From Rhodospirillaceae bacterium (GTDB taxonomy: Bacteria; Pseudomonadota; Alphaproteobacteria; Bin65): a stretch of DNA of 64,000 bases. The position numbers were made by a program, and so were the translations under genes. The stretch spans positions 62,001 to 126,000 of the forward strand of contig JAPPLJ010000030.1 of assembly GCA_028819475.1 (NCBI GenBank). Direction: 5' to 3'. Position 1 is the first letter of the stretch, and every line of letters starts with the position of its first letter. The notes below the pieces were generated by a model. That model was not told the origin of the DNA. It did not search any database and worked only from the letters and a program-made list of their open reading frames with translations. Of the stretch, positions 5,649 to 59,543 are shown one piece after another.

Positions 5649-5826
5649 AGCGCCCTTCAAGGGGGGCCGGAAGAGCGCCGCGCCGCGGGCTGGAACGCCG
5701 CCGCGCCTCTCGCCTGGCTCCCGCCTTCCGCCGCCATCTTCCTCCAGCATCGCCAGGGCATCGGCACGGAGGGCGCGGGCCGGTCACGGTCTTCAAAAAA
5801 TATTTCCTTTTTTTAGACAATATTCC

Positions 5827-5855
5827 TTGACACGGCAGTTCCCGCGCCCTATATC
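5827..5855 (+). promoter_or_regulatory. Promoter-like sequence without an assigned gene
   Basis: TTGACA (5827-5832) and TATATC (5850-5855) with a 17-bp spacer form a near-consensus sigma-70 promoter pointing into palindromic repeat A. No coding gene lies downstream on this strand. It may be chance in an AT-rich patch or may drive a short non-coding RNA. Confidence 0.35.
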
Positions 5856-5903
5856 GGCCTTGTCAACGCCCGAAATGCGCCTGCCGCGGCCGGCCGACAT
5901 CCC

Positions 5904-6047
5904 GTCCTTCGAGACGGGGCTTCGAGACGCAGTGCTGCGCACTGCTCCTCAGCCCCTCCTCAGGATGAAGAGGCATATTGGCCAATAATATCAGCTTCAT
6001 CCTGAGGAGGCCCGAAGGGCCGTCTCGAAACGCCCGTCTCGAAGGAC
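5904..6047. repeat. Nested palindromic repeat, family A, copy 2
   Basis: The outer arms GTCCTTCGAGACGG (5904-5917) and its complement (6034-6047) are perfect. The inner arms CCTCCTCAGGATGAAG (5955-5970) and its complement (5995-6010) are also perfect. The centre differs from copy 1 and holds an AT-rich stretch. The conserved arms with a variable centre suggest that arm pairing is what is maintained. Confidence 0.88.
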
Positions 6048-6365
6048 GCCGCCCCCGGTGTCGACCGGCGCTCCTACCCGGCCGGGAGGCTGGAAAATTT
6101 CCTAGCTAGAGTGATTTTGCGCACTTCCGAGAGGCGTGTTTCCAACGATTCCAAGGGGTTAGGGCCGACGGGCGCAAAAAAACATATAAGAATGATCGGT
6201 CTGTTTAATTTCAAAAAACAGAGCTATTTCAATGACTTGGGCAGCCTGAAATTGAACATTTGTTCAAAATCCGGCCGTTTTCCGGCGCCCGGCCCGCCCA
6301 GAGCGGCACAAAGCGGATGGAATCCCCCGCCATCTTCATGGCGGCGGCAACAGCGGCGCACGCGC

Positions 6366-43446: not shown

Positions 43447-44226
43447 ATGTACAAGCCGTTCGACCTGACCGGAAAGGTTGCGCTCGTCACCGGCGGCAAC
43501 GGCGGCATCGGCCTCGGCTTCTGCGAAGCGATGGCGCAGGCGGGCGCCGACATCTGCATCTGGGGCACCAACGCGGAAAAAAACGCCGCCGCGGCCGAAA
43601 CGCTGGCGGAGCCCGGCCGCAAGGTCCGTTCGCAGCAGGTCGACGTTTCGGACAGCGCCGCGGTCGAGGCCGCCTTCGCCGAGACCCTCGCCGAATTCGG
43701 CCGGGTCGACGGCGCGTTCGCCAACGCCGGGGTCACCGGCCGGAAACGCAGCTTTTTCGAGATCGACGACGCCGAATGGCAGCGCGTGATGCGGGTCAAC
43801 CTGGACGGCGCGTTCTACACCCTGCGCGCGGCGGCCCGGCACATGGTCGAGCGGGCGGAAGAGGGCGATCCCGGCGGCCGGCTGGTCGCCACGGCGAGCC
43901 TCGCCGCCCTCTCCGGCGCGGCGCGCAACGAGCATTACGGCGCAACCAAGGGCGCCGTCGTCTCGATGATCCGGGCGATGGCGGTCGATTTCGCGCGCTA
44001 CGGCATCACCGCCAACGCCATCCTGCCCGGCTGGATCGAGACCGACATGACCGAGACGCTGTTCGCCTGGGACCGGTTCGCGGAGGCCGCCCTGCCCCGC
44101 ACGCCCGCCGGGCGCTGGGGCCGGCCGGAGGATTTCGGCGGCATCGCCGTCTACCTGATGAGCGACGCCTCGGCCTTCCACACCGGCGACAGCCACCTGA
44201 TCGACGGTGGCTACTGGGTGTTCTAG
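43447..44226 (+). CDS. SDR family oxidoreductase whose 3' end is duplicated downstream
   Basis: A protein of 259 residues with VALVTGGNGGIGLGFCEAMA, AFANAGV, the catalytic tyrosine-lysine pair in NEHYGATKGAV, and the ending HTGDSHLIDGGYWVF. It is an NAD(P)-dependent short-chain dehydrogenase of unknown substrate. ATG 43447 follows a GGGAG site. The last 172 bases of the gene plus two bases beyond its stop (44055-44228) are repeated at 45817-45990 with one change, so the gene remains intact although foreign DNA follows it at once. Confidence 0.93.
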   Translation: MYKPFDLTGKVALVTGGNGGIGLGFCEAMAQAGADICIWGTNAEKNAAAAETLAEPGRKVRSQQVDVSDSAAVEAAFAETLAEFGRVDGAFANAGVTGRKRSFFEIDDAEWQRVMRVNLDGAFYTLRAAARHMVERAEEGDPGGRLVATASLAALSGAARNEHYGATKGAVVSMIRAMAVDFARYGITANAILPGWIETDMTETLFAWDRFAEAALPRTPAGRWGRPEDFGGIAVYLMSDASAFHTGDSHLIDGGYWVF

Positions 44227-44228
44227 GC
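44055..44228 (+). repeat. 174-bp direct repeat, left copy (3' end of the SDR gene)
   Basis: Identical to 45817-45990 except T versus C at 44208/45970, with no gaps. It ends two bases after the SDR stop codon. Together the two copies bracket 1,588 bp (44229-45816) holding the DGQHR gene. Confidence 0.97.
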
Positions 44229-45816: not shown

Positions 45817-45990
45817 GACGCTGTTCGCCTGGGACCGGTTCGCGGAGGCCGCCCTGCCCCGCACGCCCGCCGGGCGCTGGGGCCGGCCGGAGGATTTCGG
45901 CGGCATCGCCGTCTACCTGATGAGCGACGCCTCGGCCTTCCACACCGGCGACAGCCACCTGATCGACGGCGGCTACTGGGTGTTCTAGGC
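45817..45990 (+). pseudogene. Displaced 3' end of the SDR gene (right copy of the 174-bp repeat)
   Basis: It repeats 44055-44228 with one substitution. An ATG formed at the junction (45815) would allow a 57-residue in-frame fragment ending HLIDGGYWVF, but it lacks the Rossmann domain and active site. It most likely is the original end of the SDR gene left behind when the DGQHR insert arrived carrying, or generating, a second copy. Confidence 0.9.
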
Positions 45991-46040: not shown

Positions 46041-46568
46041 TCAGTTGTTCGGCCAGCGCATCCGCCGGAGCGGCGCATCCAGCGAAATGATCCCCGGCCC
46101 GCCCTTGAAGACAATGGCGGCGAGCACGGCGATCGCCAGCGTCTCCTTGGAAAAGAAGTTCGGATAGACGACCAGGCCGATGACGAGCGCCATGACGCAC
46201 AGGACGAAGGCCGCGTAGCGCGACGCCAGGCCGACCATCAGGAACAGCGGCGCGATGCTCTCGGCCCAGACGATCGGATGCATGGAAATGGCGTGGAACC
46301 ATTCCGGCATCTCGAAACCGAAATACTTGTACTCGGCGAACACGAAATCCTGATTGTCCGCAATCGCCCAGGGCAGCGGGATGCTCATGAAGCCGAGGTC
46401 GATCTTCTCGCCGACCCGGGTCAGCGCCGAGCGGAAGAAAAACAGGCCGACGGCAAACCGCGCGCCCAGCGCGAGCAGCGAATAGGGGATCAGCTCGAAG
46501 AGGCGGAACGTCTGCTGGATCAGGCCGTCCAGCCCCTCTTCCGTCGCCCTGGTTTCGGTCATTCTCAT
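46041..46568 (-). CDS. DoxX family membrane protein of a bufferin-type cluster
   Basis: A protein of 175 residues with four hydrophobic segments (YSLLALGARFAVGLFFFRSA, MHPIVWAESIAPLFLMVGLA, YAAFVLCVMALVIGLVVYP, TLAIAVLAAIVFKGG). DoxX-type proteins are frequent last members of DUF2282-DUF692-DUF2063 clusters. ATG 46568 follows an AGGAGCC site. It lies 48 bp after the DUF2063 gene. Its role, perhaps redox or quinone related, is not established. Confidence 0.88.
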   Translation of the reverse strand: MRMTETRATEEGLDGLIQQTFRLFELIPYSLLALGARFAVGLFFFRSALTRVGEKIDLGFMSIPLPWAIADNQDFVFAEYKYFGFEMPEWFHAISMHPIVWAESIAPLFLMVGLASRYAAFVLCVMALVIGLVVYPNFFSKETLAIAVLAAIVFKGGPGIISLDAPLRRMRWPNN

Positions 46569-46616: not shown

Positions 46617-47399
46617 TCAGCCGGCATCGCTGGTGACGTGGGAATGGAATGTGCCGCCCGCCAGATGTCCGGCGAGGCAGGCCGAAAGATCGAAGTCCGG
46701 GTCGGCGGCGACGCCGGCAGCGGCAGCTTCACCGAGCGTATCGCGGGCGGCAAGCGCGCTGAGGAAGGCGAAGTCGCCGTGCGTCGCCATGACCACGTCG
46801 ACCTTGCTTTCCGGCCGGCGCACCAGCACGCGCTGCCCGCCCTCCTGCTTTCCGGGCGGCCCGGGATCCGGCCCCGAATCCGGTAGCGCCTCGGCGCCCC
46901 ACAGGTCCCAGACCGGCCAGTCCGATTCGATCAGGCGTACCGTCGGATGCAGCCCGAGGCGCAATCCGGCATAGCGTTCCGGCGCCAGTCCGGCGAGCTG
47001 TCCGGCGTTCAGCATTTTGGCATCGGCCTCGAAATAGGCCTCGTTCACCGCCCACTCGACCCGCGCGAGATCGGGCAGGAAGGGCAGTTCCTCGACCGCC
47101 GGCGCAAAGCCGGCCAGGAAGGCCGCGAAGTCGCCGCCATAGGCGAACAGCTGGGGCCGTTGCGGCGGGTATTCCGCGATAAACCGCCGGGCCAGCACGG
47201 TGAATTTCTCATCGCCGACCAGATTGCGGACGGTCGGGAACGCGGCCTCGAGCACGCCGGCCAGCGACCGGTAGATATTGTTCCGGTAAATGCCGAAGCG
47301 ATGGCCGTTCTGCATGCCGCCGGCGGAAAGGGCCGCCACCGCCTCGCCGTCGCGGCCGATCGTTGCGGCGCGGAAGGCGGCTTGCAGGTCAGGCAACAT
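46617..47399 (-). CDS. DUF2063 (HvfC/BufC-type) MNIO partner protein
   Basis: A protein of 260 residues starting [15 protein letters not shown], with the conserved [20 protein letters not shown] and [23 protein letters not shown]2063 proteins bind the precursor peptide and deliver it to the neighbouring DUF692 oxygenase in ribosomal-peptide pathways. ATG 47399 overlaps the end of the MNIO gene by 11 bp, so coupling to it is expected. The frame is intact although the MNIO gene is interrupted. Confidence 0.92.
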
Positions 47400-48324
47400 C
47401 GTCCAGAATCCGGGGCTCGGGCCCAAGCCTGTCCAGCGCCGCCTGCGCCCGCGCCGCTTCGCCGAGCAGGGTGTCGAGCGGCGGCAGGTCCAGATCCCAT
47501 TCCATGAGAACCGGTTTCGGCCCGACCCGCGCGAGCGCGGTATCCAGCAGGTCCCAGACCGCCTCTTTCACGGTCGATCCGTGATCGTCGATCAGCACCG
47601 GCCGGCCGTCCCACTCCGTATCGGCGTGGCCGGCGATATGGATTTAGCCGACCAGCTCGCCGGGAATCGCATCGATAAAGTTCAGCGCGTCGTAGCCGTG
47701 GTTGAAGGCGCTGACATGGATGTTGTTGACGTCCAGCAGCAGGCCGCAGCCGCTGCGCTTCGCCGCTTCGACGCAGAATTCCCATTCCGGGATCGCCGAT
47801 TCGGCGAAGGTGACGTAGGAGGACGGATTTTCGATCAGGATGGTCCGGCCGAGTGCGTCCTGCGCCTGGCCGATGTTGCGCACCAGGGTGTCCAGCGCCT
47901 CTTCGGTATAGGGCAGCGGCAGCAGGTCGTTCAGATAGTCGCCGCCGGTCGTGCTCCAGGAGACATGCTCGGAAACCAGGCCGGGCTCGAACCGGTCGAA
48001 CAGGGACCGCAAAAGCGCAAGATGGGCGGTATCAAGCCCTTCGGCACTGCCGAGCGACAGGCCGACGCCGTGGCAGCTCAGGGGATAGTCCCGGCGGATC
48101 GCCTCGAGCGTCGCCAGCCGCGGACCGCCCGGGCACAGATAGTTTTCCGAATGAACCTCGATCCATGCGGTCGCCGGCCGGCCGTTCAGGAAGTCGCCGT
48201 AATGGGTATGGCGCAGGCCGATGCCGGCGGCGGCGGGGACCGGATCGCGCGCGAAAGCGTCAGCCAGCCCGGTCCCGTGTTCGATGGCCCCGTGTTCGAT
48301 GGCCATGCCGTCCCCTGCCGCCAT
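47389..48324 (-). pseudogene. DUF692 multinuclear iron oxygenase (MNIO), interrupted by an in-frame stop
   Basis: The frame encodes the DUF692 barrel: [57 protein letters not shown]. At codon 227 (47646-47644) a TAA stands where the family usually has an amino acid before IHIAGH. After it the same frame continues with [20 protein letters not shown] and [14 protein letters not shown] to the normal end at 47389. The part after the stop holds conserved metal-site residues, so the 226-residue product should be inactive. A single base change or a sequencing error explains it. Intact, it would modify cysteines of the DUF2282 peptide. Confidence 0.9.
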
Positions 48325-48444
48325 TCGCTACCGCCATTCGCTGCCGCCGTCGGCCCTTTATATCTGGACGCCCGCGCACAACTGGCAAGGCGTTTTCCTT
48401 CGTCCGGAGACGATAGAGGCGCATGATGCGCAGGCGAAAATAAA

Positions 48445-48469
48445 GGCGGCGCGGCCGGGCCGCGCCGCC
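48445..48469 (-). terminator. Intrinsic terminator after the DUF2282 precursor gene
   Basis: On the minus strand GGCGGCGCGG and CCGCGCCGCC form a 10-bp stem with a 5-nt loop, followed by TTTATTTT. It starts 18 bp after the precursor stop. Partial read-through would give more precursor than enzyme transcript, the usual need in such clusters. Confidence 0.75.
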
Positions 48470-48487
48470 CCTTCGAACTTTCCGGCG

Positions 48488-48781
48488 TCAGCTGGACTTC
48501 TTCTTCGGGTTCATACCCTTGAAGGGCTTCGTCTGGCCGCCCATCTCGGTGCAGGCCGTTGCCGAGGCGACGCCTTTCCAGTCGTCACCGCTGTAGTCGA
48601 CCTTGGACTGGCCGGCGCAGCTGTGCGTGCCCGCGGCGTTGCCGCAATCGTTCTGGCCGGCCTTGGCGATGCCGTAGCACTTCGTCTTGGCGGCCATGGC
48701 CGGGGTCGCGGCGGTCACGGCGGCCAGGGAAAGGGCGCCGGCAACGGCCGCGGCAACGGTCAATGCGTTGACTGTTTTCAT
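48488..48781 (-). CDS. DUF2282 bufferin-type precursor peptide
   Basis: A protein of 97 residues. A signal peptide (about 1-30, ending ATPAMA) is followed by a core with four cysteines at 35, 46, 55 and 77 in [33 protein letters not shown] and ATACTEMGG. This matches the DUF2282 bufferin family, whose cysteines are modified by a DUF692 enzyme with DUF2063 help and which then bind copper in the periplasm. ATG 48781 follows a GGAGG site. Whether modification still occurs is doubtful because of the MNIO stop. Confidence 0.92.
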
Positions 48782-49017
48782 GATGGAATCCTCCGGAATG
48801 TCGGTTCTCGGTGAGTGGCGAAAAAGCCATACAAACCTACGCATGGGCCCCGGCGAATCCAATCGCTTTCGTTCACGAAGGCGTGCAAAATCCGTTAGCT
48901 GCAGCGGCGTTGAACGGAGCGCCGCGGCACGGTCTTGACCGGCCGGGGGGCCGCGGTCACATTCCTGCGCCATCGGCCCGACAGACTGTTCACAGATTAT
49001 TCAGGGAGGCGCCGGCT

Positions 49018-51067: not shown

Positions 51068-51274
51068 GGATTCCTCTGTGAAGAGGCACCGAACGAATCC
51101 CCCTCCCCTTGGGGGAGGGGCTAGGGGAGGGGTCGCCTGCCGCCGCGCCGATGTCGGAACCCCGCACCGCGACAGAGGCCGCATACCCCTCCCCCTGACC
51201 CCCTCGCCCAAGGGGAGGGGGGACGCGTCGTTCTGCCTGTCGGATCCGGCTTGCGACTTTTCACAGAGAAATCC
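51068..51274. repeat. Nested palindromic repeat, family B, copy 1
   Basis: The outer arms GGATTCCTCTGTGAA (51068-51082) and TTCACAGAGAAATCC (51260-51274) match at 14 of 15 positions. Inside are C-rich/G-rich arms (51100-51132 and 51187-51222). The last ~67 bp align with 59477-59543. It fills the gap between two convergent genes and may form a large hairpin in both transcripts. Confidence 0.85.
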
Positions 51275-51305
51275 TCCCGGGAGATACCGGAATTGGCCGA
51301 ACCGC

Positions 51306-59167: not shown

Positions 59168-59260
59168 GGCGGGAGCCTCGCAATGCCGGTTACGTTCGAT
59201 ACGACATAGGCAATGCATTGCTTGCCGGCCAGTGCCCGGCGCACCGCCCCCTTCCCTGGA

Positions 59261-59543
59261 GGAGTCCTCTGCGAAAAGGGCCAGGCCGCCGCAAACTTTT
59301 CCTTCCCCCTCTTCAGAGGGGGAAGTGGCCGAGCGCAGCGAGGTCGATGGGGGTGTCCGCGTGCTGTAGGGCCGTGCCGGCGCCACTCCACCCCCACCTG
59401 GCCTCCCCCTCTGAAGAGGGGGAGGAATAGGAAAGCGTCCGTTGGCGGATACTTGCGGCCTTCGCAGAGGAATCCCCAAGGGGAGGGGGACTGCCTTGCT
59501 TTCTCTGTCGAATCCCGTTCGTGGCTTTTTAACGAGAAATCCG
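59261..59543. repeat. Nested palindromic repeat, family B, copy 2
   Basis: The outer pair 59261-59275 and 59461-59475 matches at 14 of 15. Within are CTTCCCCCTCTTCAGAGG-type (59302-59324) and CCTCCCCCTCTGAAGAGG-type (59402-59424) hairpins. The ~67 bp ending 59543 align with the end of the copy at 51068-51274. It takes up most of the 418-bp gap between msrA and the MazE-like gene; the rest shows a short leader with a GGAGG site. Confidence 0.85.

Follow-up and report, generated by a model that had tools for sequence, protein, structure and literature searches.

Background

Bufferin precursors are exported by the Sec pathway, two of their central cysteines are converted by an MNIO enzyme acting with a DUF2063 partner, and the resulting product binds excess copper. 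For Buf1-type clusters, both the modification of central cysteines and the buffering of copper have been described (PMC12452194). DUF2282 without an MNIO was found in only 21 of 4072 complete genomes (PMC12452194), so that loss of the enzyme with retention of the precursor is uncommon but documented. Within the MNIO family, single substitutions of the metal ligands of MbnB either abolished its activity or lowered its level (PMC8888699), and the D249A substitution in FonB left the peptide unmodified (PMC13097082).

Gene content of the operon

The window, that is, the whole stretch of DNA analysed, is a 64-kb segment of contig C30 from the draft assembly of a Rhodospirillaceae bacterium (4.48 Mb, 72 contigs, 96.4% complete). 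Positions below are window positions unless a contig is named. A four-gene block occupies the minus strand from 48781 to 46041, in the order DUF2282, MNIO, DUF2063, DoxX. The first gene (48488..48781) encodes a Bufferin-1 type precursor of 97 residues (PF10048, E = 5.2e-19), which has four cysteines (C35, C46, C55 and C77), kept in all six aligned congeners, and whose 30 N-terminal residues resemble a signal peptide. Next comes the MNIO frame (47389..48324; DUF692, the MbnB/TglH/ChrH family), which is interrupted once. It is followed by the gene of the DUF2063 partner (46617..47399; PME type 1, 260 residues; PF09836, E = 2.7e-23) and by that of a DoxX-family membrane protein of 175 residues (46041..46568; PF07681, E = 9.2e-06), the latter being 99% identical in the nearest congener, G001. 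These Pfam matches, found in the expected order, agree with the cluster identity and gene order proposed in the initial annotation. The ATG of the DUF2063 gene, at 47399, overlaps the 3' end of the MNIO frame by 11 nt, and no clear ribosome-binding site was seen in the sequence directly ahead of it.

Several other elements were noted around these genes. A pattern scan of the gap between the precursor and MNIO genes picked out a GC-rich hairpin followed by a T-rich tail (48446..48463, minus strand), possibly a partial terminator. Upstream of the precursor gene, the inverted repeat TTCGTgaACGAA (48868-48879, minus strand) may be a regulator site; it recurs in the four congeners for which the upstream region was compared. 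Downstream of the DoxX gene, two near-identical copies (99%) of a segment of about 100 bp are found at 44130-44228 and 45892-45990. Short dispersed repeats (about 100 to 280 bp), with many copies across the contigs of the nearest relative, are located at 5764-6327, 51068-51283 and 59221-59514.

The MNIO frame consists of 312 codons (48324-47389), of which 226 are open before an in-frame TAA and 84 after it. This TAA is codon 227 (47644..47646, minus strand). When the stop was written as X, PF05114 matched across it, from residue 33 to residue 297, with 340.7 bits (cut-off 25; E = 6.7e-102). Translation of the frame and alignment with the congeners, where the codon encodes Glu, thus bear out the earlier claim of a TAA at 47646-47644 within a frame that is intact on both sides. 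The operon contains no second stop or frameshift, and neither a second MNIO nor a second DUF2282 gene was found in the assembly. The accompanying claim that all other genes are open holds for the window genes that could be compared with the nearest congener: among about 50 genes matched to G001 in the 64-kb window, only the MNIO combined an in-frame stop with codon constraint before and after it. We conclude that the cluster is an ordinary Buf1-type bufferin operon with a probable loss-of-function allele; no mechanistic novelty was found.

Comparison with related genomes

Each of the other six genomes of the genus has a single MNIO, free of stops and 73 to 96% identical. In the nearest congener, the frame runs without a break and is 96% identical along its full 311 residues; the DNA identity is also 96%. 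That this frame is uninterrupted, and that all six congeners are intact, excludes chance as the source of the observation. It had been predicted that relatives would show a sense codon (GAA or CAA) at the position of the stop. When this was checked, codon 227 was GAA or GAG, hence Glu, in the six congeners, and GAA in the nearest one, so that a single G-to-T change suffices to give TAA. Across 24 aligned MNIO proteins, taken from this lineage and from more distant ones, Glu227 was invariant; Gln occurs at the position in a few more distant relatives. Seventeen of the 49 invariant columns of the alignment lie at or after the stop (Glu227 and 16 others).

Codon constraint was used to assess the age of the lesion. 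Polarised changes on the branch of this genome amounted to six nonsynonymous and eight synonymous in the MNIO, in addition to the stop. If the gene were an older pseudogene in a cluster that is being lost, one would expect the whole operon to decay. The precursor, with five nonsynonymous against two synonymous changes on this branch, could point in that direction, though the changes fall at positions that vary among congeners. This explanation is nevertheless very improbable, given the lack of a frameshift or second stop and the low dN/dS values: against G001, these were 0.17 before the stop and 0.11 after it in the MNIO, 0.04 in the DoxX gene and 0.29 in the DUF2063 gene. Since codons are constrained on both sides and the rest of the operon is unbroken, the stop is either recent or not real. 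The Glu codon of the relatives, the constraint downstream of the stop and the lack of other decay are in line with what had been proposed at the outset, namely a very recent mutation, a strain polymorphism or a sequence error. Most likely, therefore, an ordinary system has recently acquired a single, isolated inactivating mutation, or the sequence is in error at this point.

Isolated stops elsewhere in the genome

The background of such stops was estimated on 366 genes of C30 and of three further contigs (135,535 aligned codons), about one-tenth of the genome, compared with G001. Genes were chosen by dN/dS; G+C content by codon position had selected antisense frames. Without a relative for comparison, ab initio scans for broken frames were unsuitable: they gave no output, were swamped by antisense frames or missed the MNIO itself. 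Clean in-frame stops with constrained codons on both sides were found in two of the 366 genes, the MNIO and an RND efflux permease. The permease frame (1033 residues, C30:56694-53596) has a TAG at codon 190 (G000:C30:56127-56125, minus strand; locus L072), where four congeners have a Glu codon, and its dN/dS is low on both sides. It is on the same contig, 53 kb from the MNIO, and precedes the first position of the window by about 6 kb.

Several candidate frameshifts of the present genome were rejected after inspection of the translations, as they corresponded to antisense N-terminal extensions in the ORFs of the relative. When the same rule was applied in the reverse direction, that is, to stops in G001, the cases marked appear to fall at the ends of frames, in gaps, or where the aligned stretch was short or poor. 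G001 does have a lesion of its own, a frameshifted GST-like gene (G001:C61:68748-69464) that is intact in the present genome. Among the approximately 150 MNIO matches listed in 385 alphaproteobacterial genomes, two contained a stop, that of the present genome and that of an unrelated alphaproteobacterial genome, G159 (G159:C8:36556-37365, locus L156), in which a single in-frame TAG follows the residues SEHLAW. The frameshift of G001 and the one-stop MNIO of G159 indicate that isolated lesions do occur, if rarely, in genomes of this kind. The frequency of isolated stops of this kind is roughly 0.5 to 1%.

Real allele or sequence error

We then weighed the possibility of a consensus or assembly error, in which case the codon would be a sense codon in the organism and its MNIO would be functional. 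A single wrong base would be enough, and the lack of further decay in the operon as well as the normal codon constraint downstream are equally expected from an error. In addition, a second Glu-to-stop codon is present on the same contig, in the RND permease, and the assembly, a fragmented draft of 72 contigs, could be a metagenome-assembled genome with mixed strains. The counts argue in the other direction. In these genes, 2.5% of random single-base changes create a stop, so that two stops in 135,506 codons, if all were errors, correspond to some 79 errors over 406 kb, or about 2e-4 per base; with two events only, the range is wide, roughly 2e-5 to 7e-4 per base. The error rate of a consensus built from well-covered short reads would normally lie below 2e-4 per base; this speaks for at least one of the changes being real. 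Neither is it remarkable that both stops derive from Glu, since no other single type of change creates stops in these genes as often as G-to-T in Glu codons (7485 of 30,779). G/T differences in the 366 genes were balanced (594 G>T and 627 T>G), and neither a mutator nor a systematic G-to-T artefact is supported. We consider an error to be a serious but less probable explanation, perhaps one chance in three in plain terms, and favour, with some confidence, a real allele that is either recent or segregating.

The stop might also be bypassed, by programmed readthrough or recoding of TAA, to yield a full-length MNIO. The intact and constrained frame beyond the stop would fit this proposal, as would the second Glu-derived stop in the permease, which bears the same signature. 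However, both positions are standard Glu codons in the congeners, the stops themselves differ (TAA and TAG), and no tRNA gene is present within the 64-kb window. Bypass of the stop is thus extremely improbable.

Predicted effect on the enzyme and the pathway

A predicted model of the intact MNIO from the nearest congener (mean pLDDT 85) had 3bww, TglH and MbnB as best structural matches. In this model, the stop falls inside a barrel strand, strand 7 (residues 225-230), and strand 8 (272-274) and two helices (254-267 and 283-301) are downstream. The segment that would be left untranslated if the stop is real (47389..47643, minus strand) thus includes the rest of strand 7, strand 8 and the putative ligands H229, D246 and E275. 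The first two align with the iron ligands His194 and Asp209 of VcMbnB (ligand list in PMC8888699); conservation suggests that E275 is the counterpart of MbnB Glu238. As all three are located after the stop, the translated product, as assembled, does not have the full set of iron ligands. A full-length MNIO is encoded in the congeners but not in this assembly, where TAA is codon 227. The 226-residue product, with its barrel and iron site incomplete, should be inactive, because strand 8 and ligands are lost and because ligand substitutions in MbnB, and D249A in FonB, are harmful.

Assuming that the allele is real, one recent G-to-T change would have converted the codon of the invariant Glu227 to TAA. 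With an incomplete barrel and iron site, the precursor would be made but left unmodified, and copper buffering by the bufferin route would be lost. Since the assembly has no second MNIO, modification of the precursor would not be rescued. Moreover, ribosomes would stop about 245 nt short of the DUF2063 start codon, and expression of the partner may drop by polarity; such an effect is possible because the ATG overlaps the end of the MNIO frame with no clear ribosome-binding site before it. A more specific scenario, in which the lineage has just begun to lose bufferin maturation, the TAA allele segregates among strains, and an unmodified four-cysteine precursor is still made and possibly keeps some residual metal binding, appears rather unlikely.

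If the stop is real, a bufferin enzyme has been knocked out naturally at a single codon, with all other genes intact and no other MNIO in the assembly. Strains with and without the stop would therefore show what the modification contributes to copper tolerance. Otherwise, isolated stops in draft genomes (about 0.5% of genes) call for reads before interpretation.

Relation to known systems

The locus resembles the Buf1 (DUF2282) bufferin clusters (PMC12452194) in the order of precursor, MNIO, DUF2063 and DoxX genes and in its four-cysteine DUF2282 precursor, and differs from them by the in-frame stop in the MNIO frame. The MNIO of G159 likewise has an intact frame apart from one in-frame stop; in that case, however, the stop is a TAG, it is found at another position, after SEHLAW, and the lineage is unrelated. 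The intact MNIO of the congener agrees in sequence and predicted fold with MbnB, TglH and HS_1138 (PDB 7dz9, 8hi7 and 3bww), and ligand positions of MbnB align with H229 and D246 of the present frame. In contrast to these three proteins, the present one, as assembled, stops at residue 226 and does not have the C-terminal quarter.
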